64,000 nucleotides of DNA from Maribacter aestuarii. GTDB lineage: Bacteria > Bacteroidota > Bacteroidia > Flavobacteriales > Flavobacteriaceae. Under the pieces are notes generated by a model. The model was given only the letters and a program-made list of their open reading frames with translations. It was not told where the DNA came from and searched no databases. The stretch covers positions 3,797,001 to 3,861,000 of the forward strand of contig NZ_CP107031.2 in the NCBI RefSeq assembly GCF_027474845.2, read 5' to 3'. Of this stretch, positions 50,527 through 58,351 are shown in pieces. Each line of letters begins with the position of its first letter. Position 1 is the stretch's first letter. A program made the translations under genes and the position numbers.

Positions 50527-50634
50527 TCTTTGCACTTCTCTGTTAAAAACTTTCTCACAAACCCAATCTCCAATCCCAAAAAATCATAGTAAGAATAACG
50601 AACTTAGACCACAATTAACCAAACACCCATCCCT

Positions 50635-51939
50635 ATGAAACCGTTCCATTTTATTTTTTTAATCTTCATTTTAACCATCCTAGCTTCCTGCAGAACGGAA
50701 ACCAAGACCGTTGCAGCCGTAGAAAAGTTTCAATTTGCAGAACCCAGTGCAGTGGGCATGATAGCGGATAGTTTGGCCAAAATTGATGATATGGTGATGG
50801 AATTTGTAGAGGCCAACAAATACCCGGGAGCCGTCACACTAGTGGCTAAAGACGGAAAAATTATTTATGAATCCGAGGTGGGCTGGTCGGATTCATCACG
50901 AACAATACCCTATAGAAAGGACCATTTATTCCGTATGGCCTCCATGACCAAACCGCTGGTCTCCGTGGCGGCCATGCAATTGGTGGAGAACGGAAAATTG
51001 AACCTGGATGACCCCGTTGGCAAATACATTCCCACCTTCAGCGAAACTGAAGTACTTACCAATTTTAATCCCGCAGATACGACGTGGACCAGCACACCCT
51101 CCGCATCAGCCCCTACTGTGCGGCAGTTATTGACCCATACCGCCGGCGTACCCTATGCATTTACAAATCCCCCGGTACATGGTGCCATTCTGGCCAAGCA
51201 TGGTATTCCCGACTTGAGCACCTATTTGCCCATGACCGTTGCCGAAACTATGAGCAAATTGGGAAATCTTCCTTTAATGCACGAGCCAGGAGCCCAGTGG
51301 ATGTATGGTCTGAATACCGATGTCTTGGGACGCGTAGTGGAAGTTGCCTCCGGACAAAAATTGGATAATTACATCCGTGAGCATATCACAAAACCGTTGG
51401 GGATAGAAAAATTGGACTTTTATTTCAACGATTCCCTAACGACCGACCTTCCAAAGGTATTCGTACCCGATCCTGAAGGAGGGATTACCCAGGTGGACTC
51501 CGCAATGGGTCCCTGGTATATTCCCAACTATCCTACGCAAGGAGCGCAAACCTACCATTCCGGAGGTAGCGGCATGACCGGTACGGCGCGCGATTATTTC
51601 CTCTTTTGCCAAGCCATGCTGAACGACGGAATCTTAGGAGGTAAACGGATTTTAAAAACGGAAACCGCGCAAATCATGCATCAGGATCAAATAGATACCA
51701 TTTCGTATCCATGGGGGACAGCACGTTTCGGTTTTGGTTTTGATGTGGCGGATGGCCATCCCCTACGACCCAATGGCACCTACAGCTGGAGCGGTGCTTT
51801 TAGTACCGTTTTTTGGATAGACCCTACGAACGATCTCATCGTAATACAATTACGGCAAGTCCTGAGCTCTCCCGATAACGCCGATATTAATTCAAAACTG
51901 GAGAAAATTGTATATGGTGCCTTAACTGAAAGTAAGTAA
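50635..51939 (+). CDS. Serine hydrolase, class C beta-lactamase/esterase family
   Basis: A 434-residue lipoprotein (MKPFHFIFLIFILTILASC, Cys19). S12-family fold: catalytic Ser103 and Lys106 in SMTK, Tyr224 in WMYGLNTDVLG, and HSGGSGMTG where KTG stands in true class C beta-lactamases. That points to an esterase or D-peptidase rather than an antibiotic-resistance enzyme. Third-codon positions are richer in C and G than in neighbouring genes. The amidohydrolase gene follows after 38 bases, probably one operon. Confidence 0.9.
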   Translation: MKPFHFIFLIFILTILASCRTETKTVAAVEKFQFAEPSAVGMIADSLAKIDDMVMEFVEANKYPGAVTLVAKDGKIIYESEVGWSDSSRTIPYRKDHLFRMASMTKPLVSVAAMQLVENGKLNLDDPVGKYIPTFSETEVLTNFNPADTTWTSTPSASAPTVRQLLTHTAGVPYAFTNPPVHGAILAKHGIPDLSTYLPMTVAETMSKLGNLPLMHEPGAQWMYGLNTDVLGRVVEVASGQKLDNYIREHITKPLGIEKLDFYFNDSLTTDLPKVFVPDPEGGITQVDSAMGPWYIPNYPTQGAQTYHSGGSGMTGTARDYFLFCQAMLNDGILGGKRILKTETAQIMHQDQIDTISYPWGTARFGFGFDVADGHPLRPNGTYSWSGAFSTVFWIDPTNDLIVIQLRQVLSSPDNADINSKLEKIVYGALTESK

Positions 51940-51977
51940 CAATCGCTATCTTAAATCCTTAATAAAATCAACCTGAT

Positions 51978-54020
51978 ATGAAACTACGAATCCTCTATTT
52001 ACCCTTTATTTTATTGCTGCTCATTTCCTGTAATCAAGAAGCGGATGAAAAATCTTCTTTGGAAGCTTATCAGGGCGATGAAACGTACTCCGTCATCTTT
52101 GGCGGTACCGTGGTCGGTCATTTGAAGACCCTGACCGTTGGAGATACTATACAAGTGGATTACGATTATAAAAACAATGGTCGTGGACCTACCATGAAAG
52201 AGACCATCGTGTTAAATGCGGCCGGGTTTCCGGTGCAATGGGATATTTCCGGGAACACCACTTTTGGCAATAGCGTGGACGAAAAGTTTAGGATGAATGG
52301 AAACAACGCTTCCTGGACCGATGCCACTGGTAGCGATAGTACGGCGACCAACACGGCGTTGTGGTATGTGAATCAATCTGGTAGTCCGTATTCGGAGATA
52401 CTTACGGCACGTAGCCTTATGAACGCTCCCGATTTTTCTGCCGATGTACTTCCGGCGGGCAAACTGAAACTCACCGAAATGGAAAAAACCAGCATAACGG
52501 TAGATTCCACCATGGTGGACCTGACCACATATGCCATGTCCGGTGCGGATTTGAATCCCTCCTATTTCATTGCTGATAACGACCAAAGGTTATTCGCCGT
52601 TATCAGTCCGTCGTTCGTCATTGTTCGGGAAGGTTTTGAATCGAAAGAAAAAGAACTCAGGGCATATGCCGAAAAATATTCCACAGAGCGTTTTGAATCC
52701 CTTCAAAAGCAATACGCCCATAACTACGGGAAAAAGGTGCGTATCACCAACGTAAAAATCTTTGACCCCAATACCTTACAATTGTCCGCACCATCATCTG
52801 TGTTGGTAGACGGGGAGCGTATTGTAAGTATCGATGCCTCAGACGCCAGTGGCGCGGATGAGGTGGTCATTGACGGAGCCGGCGGCACCTTGGTGGCCGG
52901 AATGTACGAAATGCATGCCCACACCGGGGATGAGGGCGCCTTGCTGAATGTACTGGCGGGCGTAACTTCCTTCCGGGATATGGGGAACGATAATGAGGTC
53001 CTGGACGAGCTCATCAAGAAAATAAATTCAGGCATTTTAGCCGGACCTCGGGTACATCGCTTAGGTTTTATTGAGGGACAAAGTGAGTACAGCGCCAATA
53101 ACGGTATTTTGGTTTCCAGTGAGGAAGAGGCGCTGGCGGCGGTGGACACCTATCATGACAAAGGTTTTTATGGTGTCAAACTGTACAATTCCATGAACGG
53201 GGATTGGGCCCCGGTCATCGTTAAAAAGGCCCATGGCTACGGCATGTTCGTCTGTGGACATGTGCCCGCGTTCTCCAATGCTAATGCCATGTTACGTGCC
53301 GGTTTTGATGAAATGACGCATATAAACCAGACGATGTTGGGTTGGGTATTGGAGCCCGATGAAGATACCCGGACGTTACTACGACTTACGGCCCTGAAAC
53401 GTTTTCCGGGCTTGGACCTGAACAGTCCCAAAGTGCAGCAAACCATGGACTTGTTCGTAAAGAACAATACCGCTATGGACCCCACCTTGGCCATCCATGA
53501 GGTGTTGATGAAAGCGAGAAACGGGAAAGTCTGGGACGGCACCAAGGATGTCATAGACCATTTGCCCCCCAACGCCCAACGGGGATATAAGGTAGCCTTG
53601 GCCGATGTAGCTTCGTCCGAGGACGACACTGCCTATCGTGAGGGTTATGAAAAAATTGTGGAGACCTTAAAAATGATGAAGGATAAAGGTATCCAGATCA
53701 TACCGGGCACGGATTTGGGTGGCTCTTTCTTTTACCATAGGGAACTGGAGCTGTACGAACAATTGGGCTTTACCCCTGCGGAACTCGTGAAACTGGCGAC
53801 CTATGATATGGCGAATTATTTGGGCGACAAGGACCTGGGAAGCATTGCGCCCGGCAAACTGGCGGATTTCTTCCTCATTCCCGGTAACCCCGTGGAGGAT
53901 ATTAAGGCCATAAAAACCATAGCCCTGGTATCCCGAGGTGGTACGTTCTACTACCCTAGTGAGGTCTATCCTGCGTTTGGTATTGAGCCTTTTACCGAAA
54001 TGCCGAAAGTAACGGAGTAA
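51978..54020 (+). CDS. Secreted metal-dependent amidohydrolase, lipoprotein
   Basis: A 680-residue lipoprotein (MKLRILYLPFILLLLISC, Cys18). The first about 270 residues are a beta-rich accessory region; the amidohydrolase barrel starts near 280 (DGERIVSIDASD) with His313-x-His315 (MHAHT), a Lys in GVKLYNS, His in CGHVPAF and MTHINQ, and Asp in PGTDLGG, a full metal set for the imidazolonepropionase-like/Xaa-Pro dipeptidase-like group. C-terminal LGSIAPGKLADFFLI is the family ending. Probably acts on peptides or cyclic amides in the periplasm together with the preceding hydrolase. Same GC-rich codon use as that gene. Confidence 0.92.
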   Translation: MKLRILYLPFILLLLISCNQEADEKSSLEAYQGDETYSVIFGGTVVGHLKTLTVGDTIQVDYDYKNNGRGPTMKETIVLNAAGFPVQWDISGNTTFGNSVDEKFRMNGNNASWTDATGSDSTATNTALWYVNQSGSPYSEILTARSLMNAPDFSADVLPAGKLKLTEMEKTSITVDSTMVDLTTYAMSGADLNPSYFIADNDQRLFAVISPSFVIVREGFESKEKELRAYAEKYSTERFESLQKQYAHNYGKKVRITNVKIFDPNTLQLSAPSSVLVDGERIVSIDASDASGADEVVIDGAGGTLVAGMYEMHAHTGDEGALLNVLAGVTSFRDMGNDNEVLDELIKKINSGILAGPRVHRLGFIEGQSEYSANNGILVSSEEEALAAVDTYHDKGFYGVKLYNSMNGDWAPVIVKKAHGYGMFVCGHVPAFSNANAMLRAGFDEMTHINQTMLGWVLEPDEDTRTLLRLTALKRFPGLDLNSPKVQQTMDLFVKNNTAMDPTLAIHEVLMKARNGKVWDGTKDVIDHLPPNAQRGYKVALADVASSEDDTAYREGYEKIVETLKMMKDKGIQIIPGTDLGGSFFYHRELELYEQLGFTPAELVKLATYDMANYLGDKDLGSIAPGKLADFFLIPGNPVEDIKAIKTIALVSRGGTFYYPSEVYPAFGIEPFTEMPKVTE

Positions 54021-54073
54021 TAGTTATGATTAAGTTTTGATATTAAGGTTCGCCTAAGGTTAATCTACTTTGG

Positions 54074-54235
54074 ATGTCACTTCGAGTGAATTTCCCAGAC
54101 GTTGCCCTGAGCGGAGCCGAAGGGTACGAGGAAATTTGTATCGAGAAGCAATCTCGTGCCAAAAGGCACTGCCCTAAGCGGAGTCTAGTGTTCTCGATAC
54201 AACGTCCCTTTCAGGACGTCACTCGAACTGACAAT
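54074..54235. repeat. Palindromic repeat A, copy 1
   Basis: About 160 bases bounded by near-perfect terminal inverted repeats (TGTCACTTCGAGTGA against TCACTCGAACTGACA). Inside is a second perfect inverted pair (TTGTATCGAGAA/TTCTCGATACAA) and two related GCCCTGAGCGGAG units. Non-coding; short frames through it are artefacts. Copies 2 and 3 are at 55780 and 56118. Confidence 0.85.
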
Positions 54236-54264
54236 CGTGATTATTCAAAAAAAACTATTTAATG

Positions 54265-54419
54265 TGAGAGGGGAGCTTATTAAAGTACTACGAAGGTAAA
54301 ACAAGCCAACGGCTCCTCCCTTTAACTAAAGGGAGGTGGTCAATTTAATTGGCATGAGGGTTCTGACTTTACCACAATACGAATTGAAAACAGAACTCCC
54401 CGGTTTGACAAGCCAAACC
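54265..54419. repeat. Palindromic repeat B, copy 1
   Basis: About 155 bases: AGAGGGG start, then CCTCCCTTTA-N4-TAAAGGGAGG hairpin, then GGGTTCTG...CAGAACTCCC arms, then GGTTTGACAAGCCAAACC. The last 64 bases are identical to copy 3 (54356-54419 = 56407-56470). It lies directly downstream of the putative anti-sigma gene. The remaining intergenic sequence from 54021 holds nothing else I recognise. Confidence 0.85.
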
Positions 54420-54465
54420 TCAAAACCAAATCGTTATATTCAATAAATCAAAATCCCTGCTATTT

Positions 54466-55056
54466 TTAATTCTCTAGTCCACTTATTAATTCATCAACCT
54501 TATCAATTCTTGGGTCGATTTCATTTTTCACTCTTTTTTTATTTAAAAAATATGCATAAATCCCTATGGATATGGTAGCCAAATAACTAATAATTATTAT
54601 ATGGCGCTTTTCGGGCAACTCCCAAAAACCAACTAGAAAAAGGAACATAATAGGGAAAATGGGAAGAACTCCCCAATAGAAATACGTTTCAAGCAATTTC
54701 TTTTGTGCTTTAAGGTATATCTTAGTCCTTTTGAGATATTCAAGATAATTTTCTTCCAAATCACTAGGTTTAATATTTTTTATACCCAATACTTTGATCA
54801 ATGTCGTGATTCCTAAAATAATTATTAATATGCAAGCAATTTTGGTAGTAGTAAAAGGAACCCGAAAAATGAGGTAAGCAAAGGAAAGAATACCAATAAT
54901 TAAAGAAATCACCTCTACGAGTTCAAGATATTTCCACCATCTATGTAACCGTCCCAAACTTGATTTTAATTCTATCATCAGTTTTGATTTATTGAATTTT
55001 ATCTGTTCGTGATCGCTTGAGGATTGCCAAATTTTAATAAGTTCATCTTCTATCAT
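54466..55056 (-). CDS. Membrane protein, putative anti-sigma factor
   Basis: A 196-residue protein with a short charged N-terminus (MIEDELIKIWQSSSDHEQIK) and four hydrophobic segments (about 48-66, 71-90, 125-143, 152-170). Overlaps the ECF sigma gene by four bases (ATGA), the usual layout of a sigma/anti-sigma pair; the W-Q-x-S N-terminus resembles that of Bacteroidota membrane regulators paired with sigma-70 genes. AT-rich compared with the core genes. Assignment as anti-sigma is from context. Confidence 0.7.
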   Translation of the reverse strand: MIEDELIKIWQSSSDHEQIKFNKSKLMIELKSSLGRLHRWWKYLELVEVISLIIGILSFAYLIFRVPFTTTKIACILIIILGITTLIKVLGIKNIKPSDLEENYLEYLKRTKIYLKAQKKLLETYFYWGVLPIFPIMFLFLVGFWELPEKRHIIIISYLATISIGIYAYFLNKKRVKNEIDPRIDKVDELISGLEN

Positions 55057-55559
55057 AATGTTTTATTTATACAGTTCAACAATTTTGACTTTATACGTTT
55101 GACCTTTACAGCTATGTGGTTTTCGGATAATCCTAGAATACTTGAAATTTCCCTGTAAGCAACCTCTTCCAAGTAAAGAGCAACTATTGCCTTATCAGCT
55201 TCATCCAATTTTTTCACACATTTTCTTAGACTATTCAGTTTTTCATTTACTTCTTCGTTATTTTCTGCTGAACCAAGATTGGAAATAGTCATGCTATCCA
55301 ATCGTATGAAGCGCTTTTGATTTTTAGTCTGCTTAGATTTGGAACGAAGACAAACATTTAAGGCAATTCTAAACATCCAAGTTCCAATGGACGAATTATC
55401 TTTAAATGTGTTCATCGACCTCCATATATGGACTAACACCTCTTGAAATAGGTCTTTGGCGTCCTCCTCGTCTTTGGAATATATCGAGCAAATTCTAAAT
55501 AGCTTTTCTTGATTTTTTTCTAGTGCATCAAGAAATATAGTTTCCTGTTCTTTTTCCAT
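55053..55559 (-). CDS. ECF-type RNA polymerase sigma factor
   Basis: A 168-residue sigma-70 family protein. Region 2 (LFRICSIYSKDEEDAKDLFQ and VLVHIWRSMNTFK, TWMFRIALNVCL) and region 4 (EVAYREISSILGLSENHIAV) are both clear, linked by a short acidic loop. It would direct polymerase to its own promoter set. Pairs with the overlapping membrane protein gene; both lie between arrays of repeats A and B. Confidence 0.92.
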   Translation of the reverse strand: MEKEQETIFLDALEKNQEKLFRICSIYSKDEEDAKDLFQEVLVHIWRSMNTFKDNSSIGTWMFRIALNVCLRSKSKQTKNQKRFIRLDSMTISNLGSAENNEEVNEKLNSLRKCVKKLDEADKAIVALYLEEVAYREISSILGLSENHIAVKVKRIKSKLLNCINKTL

Positions 55560-55654
55560 TGTTAAGGCTTCTGTCCACTATTTTAGTTACCAAAGTCTTC
55601 TAAATATGACAATTTATTATTATAAATTTTGATTTATACCAGCCTATTGATTTT

Positions 55655-55775
55655 CCACTTGGATGGAAGCGGCTTGTTTTTGCAGACTGACTACACACGG
55701 ATGCAATGGCCGGAGGGTTCTGATTTTGCTAACGTATCAGTTGAAAACAAAACTCCTTTTCTTCCAGCGCTCCGC
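55655..55775. repeat. Partial repeat B (degenerate copy)
   Basis: Contains the GGCCGGAGGGTTCTGA-TTT and GTTGAAAACA-AACTCC parts of repeat B but lacks the AAGGTAAAACAAGCC start. Adjoins repeat A copy 2. Of the 1-kb gene-free stretch 55560-56578, nearly all downstream of here is repeat. Confidence 0.6.
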
Positions 55776-55779
55776 GCAC

Positions 55780-55940
55780 TGTCACTTCGAGTGAATTTGC
55801 GAGAGTTGCGGCGAGCGGAGCCGAAGGGTACGAGGAAATTTGTATCGAGAAGTAATCATGTTCCAAAGGGTACTGCCCTGAGCGCAGTTGTAGGGTTCTC
55901 GATACAACGCCTCTTTCAGGCCGTCACTCGAACTGACAAT
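55780..55940. repeat. Palindromic repeat A, copy 2
   Basis: Same terminal inverted repeats and inner TTGTATCGAGAA/TTCTCGATACAA pair as copy 1, with scattered substitutions (for example GAGAGTTGCGGCGAGCGGAG). Confidence 0.85.
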
Positions 55941-55974
55941 CGTGATTAATCAAAAAACCCTCTAAAGGGCAACT

Positions 55975-56095
55975 AACAGAGCATCACCAAGGTAAAACAA
56001 GCCAACGGCTCCTCCCTTTAGACAAACGGAGATGGCCAATGTAATTGGCCGGAGGATTCTGATTTTGCTTTGCATGAGTTGAAAACAGAGCTCCC
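55975..56095. repeat. Palindromic repeat B, copy 2
   Basis: Shares 32 identical bases with copies 1 and 3 (55989-56020, AAGGTAAAACAAGCC onwards), then diverges; its CCTCCC/GGAGAT arms are damaged. Ends against repeat A copy 3. Confidence 0.75.
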
Positions 56096-56117
56096 TTTAT
56101 TCTTACGCCCCGTTTGC

Positions 56118-56278
56118 TGTCACTTCGAGTGAATTTCCAAGTCGTTGCCCTGAGCGGAGCCGAAGGGTACACGGAAATTTGTAGCGAGAAGTAATCATGT
56201 TTCAAATGGCACTGCCCCGAGCGTGGTCCTAGGGTTCTCGATACAACGTCTCTTTCAGGACGTCACTCGAACTGACAA
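56118..56278. repeat. Palindromic repeat A, copy 3
   Basis: Third full copy with intact terminal arms; closest to copy 1 in the GTTGCCCTGAGCGGAGCCGA part. Confidence 0.85.
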
Positions 56279-56295
56279 TCGTGATTATTCTAATA

Positions 56296-56499
56296 AAACT
56301 CTTAAACTTAAGAGGGGGGCTTATAAAAGTATCACCAAGGTAAAACAAGCCAACGGCTCCTCCCTTTAGAGATAGGGAGGTGGACTTTGAGTAAGCGAAA
56401 AGGCCGGAGGGTTCTGACTTTACCACAATACGAATTGAAAACAGAACTCCCCGGTTTGACAAGCCAAACCACCCCTCTTAAACTTAAGAGGGGAGCTAA
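56296..56499. repeat. Palindromic repeat B, copy 3, with flanking CTCTTAA palindromes
   Basis: The fullest B copy. CTCTTAA-AC-TTAAGAG palindromes flank it on both sides (56300-56315 and 56475-56490), suggesting these are its true ends. Its final 64 bases equal copy 1. It ends about 80 bases before the TIR gene. Confidence 0.85.
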
Positions 56500-56519
56500 T
56501 TTATTTAAGTGTTAAAAAC

Positions 56520-56540
56520 TTCTTACAACTCTTGTAAGAA
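56520..56540. promoter_or_regulatory. Perfect palindrome before the TIR-ATPase gene
   Basis: TTCTTACAA-CTC-TTGTAAGAA, nine-base perfect arms. TAAATTTT (56551-56558), a 7/8 match to the -7 box, follows at ten bases, so the palindrome covers the -33 region: a candidate repressor site for the gene at 56582. Confidence 0.5.
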
Positions 56541-56581
56541 TGGTTACAGATAAATTTTAGAAAGCCCGAACTTCGTTATTG

Positions 56582-58129
56582 ATGGATATTAGGATTAAGC
56601 CCATTCATATTCAAAACGCTGTAGGGCATCTAAAATCAACTATGAAAGCATATTTAGAGGATGTATTCAAAACTTCAGGAATTCCAACCCATACGTTCGT
56701 AAGACCAGATGAATATAACACAATTTTAGTTTCTCTTAGAACTAAGGGAAGGTGTTTAGTCGTTGAAGGACCATCAGGAATTGGTAAAACTACTTGTGTA
56801 ATAAAAGTTATTGAAGAATTAGGTCTTAATAAAAACATCACCTCTCTAACTGCAAGGAAAAAAGACGACCTTGAGATGATAAGACTTTTACCAGAATTTC
56901 ATGGCATGGGTACTGTAATTATTGATGATTTTCATTTATTAGAATTTGATTTAAAATCATCAATTGCTGACTACATGAAAGTTTTGGCCGATGAAGAAAG
57001 AGATAATGATAAATTGATTTTAATAGGAATAAATAAGGCAGGTGATTCATTGGTTCAAATAGCTGGTGACTTAAATAATAGAATTGATACCATCAAGTTT
57101 GAGCAAAATCCTCCTAATAAAATCACCGAATTAATTGAACTAGGTGAAAAGGCCCTCAATATTAAAATAAGCACAAAAGAAGACATTACTATATTAGCAA
57201 AAGGCAGTTTTCATATAGCACAGCTATTATCTAAAGAAACCTGTATAAACTCTGAAGTATTACAAACATGCGATAACACAAAAGATTTAAAATCTAGTAT
57301 TGAAGTAATTAGAGAGAAGGTTCTATCTGATTTCGATAGGATATTTTATCCAAAAGCAAGAAAATTTGCGATTGGAAATAGGCTAAGACGAGAAGGAAGA
57401 GCACCATATTTGCATCTTTTATATTGGCTTTCACAATCTGACGAGTGGGCAATTCAAATTGATGACATATATCTTAAATATCCTGAAAACAAACTAAGTA
57501 TTACGCAAATTGTTGATAAAGGATTTCTTGAAGCTATTATAAGGGATAATGAGGAGTTAAAGGATGTGATACATTACGATACAAACTCGAGAGTTTTAGC
57601 AGTTGAAGACCCCAAATTTATGTTTTATTTGAGGAATGTTCTTTGGTCTAAATTTGCAGAAAAAGTCGGTTACATTAGTCTAGCTTTCTCAAATAAATAT
57701 GACTTCGCTTTATCTTTTGCGGGTGAGAACAGGAATCTGGCTTCAAAAATTAATGATTTACTACTTGAAAGAGAAATATCTGTATTTTACGACAAAAACG
57801 AACAATCCAGAATATTAGCAGAAAATGTTGAAGAATATTTAGCCCCAATATACAAATCTGAGGCATATTTCGTGGTAGTTTTACTAAGTCAAGATTATCC
57901 AAAAAAGATTTGGACAAAATTTGAATCAGATAATTTCAGGGAAAGATTTGGAACAAATTCAATTATTCCAATTTGGTATTCCGATAACTATCCAGGTTTA
58001 TTTGATGAAACTCAAAAATTAGGAGGTTTAAGTTTTGACCCTTCAAATGACCTTGACAAACAAGCTACCAAAATTGTAGATTTAATAGTGGAAAAACTTT
58101 CTGACCATAGAAACAAAGAAAAAGAATAA
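56582..58129 (+). CDS. P-loop ATPase with C-terminal TIR domain (candidate defence protein)
   Basis: A 515-residue protein starting at ATG 56582. Residues about 45-230 are a STAND/AAA-like ATPase: Walker A GPSGIGKTT (63-71), Walker B VIIDDFH (Asp115-Asp116), sensor-like ILIGINKAG and an Arg in LNNRIDTI. Residues about 240-365 look like a helical/winged-helix region (LYWLSQSDEWAIQIDDIY). Residues about 372-505 are a TIR domain: YDFALSFAGENRNLA, ISVFYDKNEQSRI, and the putative NADase Glu448 in WTKFES. No signal or TM segment. Clearly more AT-rich than its surroundings and beside repeat arrays, so probably acquired. ATPase sensing with TIR NAD+ cleavage on infection is inferred from related families. 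Confidence 0.88.
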   Translation: MDIRIKPIHIQNAVGHLKSTMKAYLEDVFKTSGIPTHTFVRPDEYNTILVSLRTKGRCLVVEGPSGIGKTTCVIKVIEELGLNKNITSLTARKKDDLEMIRLLPEFHGMGTVIIDDFHLLEFDLKSSIADYMKVLADEERDNDKLILIGINKAGDSLVQIAGDLNNRIDTIKFEQNPPNKITELIELGEKALNIKISTKEDITILAKGSFHIAQLLSKETCINSEVLQTCDNTKDLKSSIEVIREKVLSDFDRIFYPKARKFAIGNRLRREGRAPYLHLLYWLSQSDEWAIQIDDIYLKYPENKLSITQIVDKGFLEAIIRDNEELKDVIHYDTNSRVLAVEDPKFMFYLRNVLWSKFAEKVGYISLAFSNKYDFALSFAGENRNLASKINDLLLEREISVFYDKNEQSRILAENVEEYLAPIYKSEAYFVVVLLSQDYPKKIWTKFESDNFRERFGTNSIIPIWYSDNYPGLFDETQKLGGLSFDPSNDLDKQATKIVDLIVEKLSDHRNKEKE

Positions 58130-58351
58130 AATTAAATACAATTTACAATAATAGCTATAAAGAACGCTGAATTTGCTTTTTATTCTGAGGTAAGCGCCTA
58201 TTTAACATGTCCACAAATTCTTTTCGATTTTGCTATGGCATAAAAATATAGGGCAAAATAAAATTGGTTTTGCTACATACAAAGACAGAAACAAAGAGAT
58301 TTCCATGCCTCCGCAATAGCCACCATCTAAACGATAACGAACCTTCCAAGC

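Follow-up and report, generated by a model that had tools for sequence, protein, structure and literature searches.

Can a single gene that joins an ATPase to a C-terminal TIR domain, with no dedicated sensor, serve as an anti-phage immune system? We addressed this question for the open reading frame (ORF) at 56582-58129 on the + strand of a 64,000-nucleotide stretch of the Maribacter aestuarii genome (contig NZ_CP107031.2, positions 3,797,001 to 3,861,000), hereafter the window, which a sequence-only reading had proposed to encode an ATPase-TIR fusion and candidate single-gene immune system. Our analysis supported this interpretation in four respects: the two domains are fused, the catalytic residues are conserved, no sensor repeat is present and the unit is a single gene. 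We consider it likely that the product is a stand-alone, horizontally moving NLR-like anti-phage protein (a STAND-like ATPase) with its effector at the C-terminus. Sequence comparisons and predicted models showed a P-loop ATPase, a winged-helix-like region, strongly conserved residues, transfer as a single gene and a TIR domain that is complete and includes the catalytic glutamate; we infer the defence role from context, namely a prophage accessory slot, two type I restriction-modification (R-M) loci, the neighbours on plasmids and horizontal transfer. If true, the protein would rank with the simplest of NLR-like immune proteins, with a switch and a killing domain in ~495 residues and no sensor repeats, and it would isolate the question of how an NLR-like switch detects infection.

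Gene boundaries, domain architecture and conservation

The reading frame is uninterrupted and encodes 515 amino acids (aa) when read from the start codon at 56582; residue numbers below follow this ORF. That start codon, which the sequence-only reading had adopted, lies 20 codons too far 5′, and we rejected it because relatives begin near Met21 (within ~2 residues in 25 of the 30 relatives in a 31-row alignment, the other 5 having longer, dissimilar N-termini), because residues 1-20 have a predicted local distance difference test (pLDDT) score < 50 in the predicted model, and because DNA identity with nine other loci begins only at 56620-56639. The gene most likely starts at the ATG at 56642, giving a 495-aa ATPase-winged helix-TIR protein (56642-58129, +), and the 20-codon extension at 56582-56641 (+), absent from relatives, is probably an untranslated leader. 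The nine loci represent six distinct genes once duplicates are removed, as judged by identical match statistics (L003, L043 and L052, which are G672; L002 and L057). By identical LigA place and score, L010 corresponds to G347 and L002 to G1040. The identity among the nine loci ends at 58038-58141 and is therefore confined to about the ORF, so the conserved unit, as far as DNA comparison can tell, is a single gene; neither its neighbours nor any upstream region is shared. The gene is present in one copy in its own genome, and the AT-richness noted earlier was confirmed: the GC content of 57001-58000 is 31.0%, the lowest among the 64 bins of the window.

The predicted protein begins with a P-loop/AAA+ type ATPase domain (residues about 40-230; 56699-57271, +), and the Walker motifs fell exactly where they had been read from the sequence, with Walker A at G63-T71 including K69 (56768-56794, +) and Walker B at D115-D116 (56924-56929, +). 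R167, in the motif LNNRI (57080-57082, +), is a candidate arginine finger. A helical and predicted winged-helix region (residues about 240-362; 57299-57667, +) follows, as indicated by the secondary structure of the model and lying within the range aligned with the archaeal ATPases 2qen and 2fna. The C-terminal TIR domain (residues 372-509; 57695-58108, +) was identified by Pfam TIR_2 (PF13676; residues 375-480, scoring 34.8 bits where the cut-off is 28), by a phmmer match to AbTIR (8g83; residues 360-509, E = 2.9 × 10−7) among solved structures, and by modelling. We modelled this domain separately because the ATPase part fills the fold matches of the whole model; alone it gave a TIR fold, matching known TIRs, so the outcome that would have spoken against the proposal did not occur. 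E448 (57923-57925, +) aligns under the Glu, and W444 under the Trp, of the AbTIR motif WTNYELD, which places E448 at the NADase position as proposed; we take the glutamate of that motif to be the catalytic residue of AbTIR. The protein ends directly after the TIR domain with no sensor repeat, as the sequence-only reading had stated, and with Met21 as the first residue Walker A is reached after only about 40 residues, leaving no N-terminal effector.

All Pfam matches to the ATPase part were below cut-off (AAA_14, Rad17, nSTAND_NTPase5 and RuvB_N, among others). No curated STAND family in Pfam reached its cut-off (nSTAND_NTPase5, 19 of 34 bits; nSTAND3, 15.7 of 27.2; NACHT, 12.4 of 26.7), and we therefore call the protein STAND-like rather than a STAND member. 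Among PADLOC families, PDC-S59 matched residues 110-351 (E = 7.1 × 10−17), covering profile positions 153-401 of 428, and PDC-S66 matched residues 370-466 (E = 1 × 10−10); PDC-S59 had no match in 14 control genomes. When folds were compared using the predicted model, 5 of the 50 VIA rows extended beyond residue 350 (2qen, 2fna, 2qby, 7stb and 7st9). The archaeal 2qen and 2fna superposed at a root-mean-square deviation of 5.1-5.3, clamp loaders scored within 1 Z of 2qen, and the top Foldseek match was Cdc6. No solved chain with the ATPase-TIR architecture was found among the structure matches listed.

A protein search that scored 7997 candidates yielded at least 2339 homologues (E ≤ 0.001), and the 120 homologues listed are 468-552 aa in length. 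Their records are named only “TIR domain-containing protein,” “AAA family ATPase,” “ATPase” or “hypothetical protein.” G63, K69, D115, R167, G208, Q214, Y403, D404, W444 and E448 were present in 144/144 aligned sequences and D116 in 143/144. This alignment comprises 121 protein records including the query and 23 ORFs from other loci, some of them near-duplicates; it consists mostly of top matches and is thus biased towards conservation, yet it includes distant members such as a Pantoea plasmid protein with 30% identity. By these comparisons the family is large, strongly conserved and patchily distributed. A distant branch (L028 and L035), with TIR domains 33% and 31% identical, has a different TIR loop after FYD and, unlike the main branch, no NEQ motif.

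Genomic contexts and horizontal transfer

The ATPase-TIR gene was found on 12 IMG/VR contigs, and phage genes were checked around part of these. In the P2-like prophages of four loci (L016, L017, L019 and L023), it has the tail completion gene on one side and baseplate gene V on the other, with the flanks identified by PHROGs for L017 and by homology for the other three; L019, L023 and L044 are >97% identical across 13 kb. Because the gene and its flanks have diverged about equally, the four probably stem from one old insertion. In phage P2, this S-V slot is occupied by orf30, which is annotated as nonessential. Two of 5426 E. coli genomes carry the gene, both at the S-V position, as counted by DNA similarity to the gene of L017, a measure that would miss more distant homologues. 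The carrier prophage has 1724 bp with one annotated gene where its sister in a second E. coli strain, with 99.9% identical flanks, has 69 bp. The E. coli prophage copy lies at L044:11984-13510, preceded by 133 bp of the insert. This one-gene insert agrees with the single-gene nature seen in the DNA comparison, and the pair makes the question of defence directly testable. Other viral placements include a position after gene V (L013), directly before the large terminase gene (L018), ~1.3 kb downstream of a large terminase gene (L021), and near a portal gene with one 236-aa ORF between (L022). The site in L022 may be the published P2 defence hotspot, which section 10 of PMC9122126 places between gpA and gpQ. 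A gene for a HEPN/Toprim_N protein, possibly another defence gene, lies ~0.6 kb upstream of the ATPase-TIR gene on the viral contig L018 (L018:4447-5763).

Beyond prophages, the gene sits within a type I restriction operon, flanked by hsdS and hsdR, in a Clostridia metagenome-assembled genome (L008), and at L059 it is followed on the same strand by hsdM, hsdS and hsdS. On three of the five plasmids that carry a full-length copy, neighbours are annotated as CBASS phospholipase, TIR or caspase; another has integrases and MazF as neighbours, and another is without annotation. A consistent placement of homologues in non-defence operons, which the sequence-only reading had named as grounds for abandoning the idea, was not seen, though several do have ordinary neighbours. 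The recurrent neighbours for which it had suggested looking did not emerge: all-against-all clustering, in which flank lengths differ between loci, returned phage late genes of related prophages and otherwise no cluster beyond two distinct loci. The two-locus clusters were a small gene pair (L005/L010), a phospholipase annotated as CBASS (L032/L035), one protein at L006/L008, and integrase-type genes (L032/L033 and L033/L036).

Full-length matches occurred in 5 of 397 genomes of a family sample (three further genomes had TIR-only matches), 6 of 395 of a phylum sample and 3 of 395 of an order sample; these samples overlap, and every count includes the Maribacter genome itself. For some relatives, the protein is far more similar than LigA: 91% versus 58% identity in Kaistella, 95% versus 74% in W. 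costae, and 83% versus 50% in G672.

In Maribacter, the gene occupies a variable chromosomal spot (50527-58351) with a conserved GNAT gene on one side and a conserved pair, a 102-aa gene and a Na+/H+ exchanger gene, on the other. In two sampled congeners, the same flanks enclose other genes, and no ATPase-TIR gene was found in either. The congener spots next to the exchanger (L050:3373-15301 and L051:8213-12666) differ in gene content, and none of the ten proteins scanned there (a tricorn-like protease, glycosidases, an HTH regulator, an FAA hydrolase and others) contained a defence domain, so the spot looks like a general site of gene turnover. Local direct repeats (54070-56500; repeats at 54070-54419 and 55708-56470) lie upstream of the gene. 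We rejected a genome-wide insertion element as their origin, since the piece searched was found at three local places only. The repeats surround a gene for an extracytoplasmic function (ECF)-type sigma factor and, overlapping it, one for a putative membrane protein of 196 aa (54466-55559, −), possibly an anti-sigma factor. An operon of the ATPase-TIR gene with this pair was rejected, as the pair is on the opposite strand and DNA identity with the six other genes does not extend past the ORF. The spot also holds a 680-aa gene (51978-54020), presumably amidohydrolase-like, with no match at E = 1 × 10−60 in the two sampled congeners.

Proposed mechanism and alternative explanations

In the mechanism that we propose, the resting protein would be closed. 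The ATPase/winged-helix part would sense a phage-made trigger either directly or by way of a protein of host or phage origin; because there is no sensor repeat, detection should fall to that part or to an unlinked protein. The trigger would permit ATP-dependent assembly, in which the invariant R167 may complete the site of a neighbouring subunit. Assembly would juxtapose the TIR domains, E448 would hydrolyse NAD+, and the infected cell would arrest growth or die before phage release. A more specific version, which we think rather unlikely, makes the switch itself the sensor. The ATPase, similar to clamp loaders and origin-binding proteins, would, with its winged helix, directly recognise a phage replication structure, for instance a protein-DNA complex or a DNA end of unusual form, and would fire the TIR NADase at the C-terminus without the aid of a dedicated sensor domain.

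Several observations weigh against a mobile anti-phage protein. No full-length match was found in 50,697 phage records (one match was TIR-only), and full-length copies in 5 of 72,556 plasmid records are a small number. Four neighbours scanned at the Maribacter locus included no defence genes. Elsewhere, neighbours may be ordinary: glycosidases (L005), DNA polymerase III alpha (L010), a secreted protein (L001), polysaccharide genes (L064), a sortilin-type protein (L060) and PNPase (L065), with one to three neighbours scanned at each of these loci and ordinary domains or none found. The large neighbours at L064 had been candidates for restriction genes; by Pfam, two are polysaccharide-type and the third has no match. 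The comparison of neighbours using PADLOC (E up to 1 × 10−10; ORFs ≥120 aa) is weak: among 110 proteins from nine loci (111 before removal of a diverged family member at L063), individual models gave up to 3 type I methylase and up to 2 specificity matches within the best 25 of 189 families, versus 0 type I matches among 87 control proteins from six stretches, which matched 12 other families including SspA, DndA and one type IIG. The small number of loci makes this difference no more than suggestive. The full-length model has a predicted template modelling (pTM) score of 0.70, with pLDDT of 67-90 in the TIR blocks. Finally, because the gap between the ATPase-TIR protein and LigA is large in some relatives and absent or reversed in others, recent horizontal transfer is clear for some and not for all: there is no gap in G347 (82% versus 81%), little in L005 (79% versus 72%), and a reversed one in G556, G355 and G191 (62, 64 and 61% versus 73, 77 and 68%).

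These points leave room for other explanations, each of which we consider less probable than an NLR-like anti-phage protein. The TIR domain might make a cyclic ADP-ribose-type signal for a separate effector, as in Thoeris, instead of depleting NAD+; PMC9122126 describes a Thoeris TIR protein that makes a second messenger from NAD+, and another TIR gene lies close by in L032, L034 and L035. An E. coli prophage insert with a single annotated gene, and the lack of any neighbour at more than two distinct non-prophage loci, make this improbable. We hold it equally doubtful that the gene serves the fitness of its prophage or plasmid in some other way, whether as a counter-defence, as an addiction module or by excluding superinfection through a different route. 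Its presence on the IMG/VR contigs and the five plasmids would fit such a role; however, it is also chromosomal, as in Maribacter, where the four neighbours scanned included no phage gene, its TIR catalytic residues are invariant, and the conserved DNA is common to no partner gene. Least probable is a host regulatory or stress protein in which the TIR domain is a scaffold and not an enzyme. The adjoining sigma-factor pair on the opposite strand and the ordinary neighbours of several relatives point that way, but Y403, D404, W444 and E448 are invariant, and the patchy presence is unlike that of a core regulator.

Comparison with known systems

Among described systems, the TIR-NLR of P4-like satellites (Rousset et al. 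2022, PMC9122126) is similar in being a single gene on mobile elements that combines a TIR domain with a STAND NTPase, and it has been shown to protect against phages. Its TIR domain is N-terminal and its C-terminal tetratricopeptide repeats (TPRs) are the proposed sensor, whereas the Maribacter TIR domain is C-terminal and no repeat is present; in the authors' proposal, sensing by the TPRs is followed by oligomerisation that depends on ATP or GTP, and the TIR domain is activated. More generally, Avs and TIR-NLR STAND proteins have an N-terminal effector and long C-terminal repeats, and the Maribacter protein fits neither. SpbK of Bacillus subtilis ICEBs1 (PMC12847820) is also a single gene on a mobile element with a C-terminal TIR domain, whose NADase is activated by clustering. 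SpbK has a small four-helix N-terminal domain and no ATPase, however, and its TIR domains, which must associate to cleave NAD+, are clustered by a dodecameric phage portal.

PDC-S59 (PDLC05049) shares the ATPase/winged-helix core, but only 27 profile positions extend beyond the match, and its members L037 and L038 lack a TIR domain, as do the archaeal ATPases PABY2304 (2qen) and SSO1545 (2fna). L038 has a GLP motif in place of GSF of the Maribacter protein, and the genes adjoining these two TIR-less relatives could be separate effectors. Thoeris ThsB resembles the Maribacter protein in having a TIR domain that acts on NAD+, an activity predicted for the latter; unlike ThsB, the Maribacter protein has an ATPase, and a thsA partner in cis is absent from the one-gene insert and the shared DNA.

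A literature search of partial coverage, with few subscription papers and including PMC8195603 and PMC12847820, returned no published description of the ATPase-TIR architecture. The term “TIR” does not occur in the main text of the DefensePredictor study (PMC13092281), which reports P-loop NTPase domains in 7 of 31 further validated systems; an ATPase-TIR relative could be among these seven. The parts of the Maribacter protein are thus known, and it is their order, a switch followed by a TIR domain and nothing else, that differs from the TIR-STAND proteins described in the literature covered.
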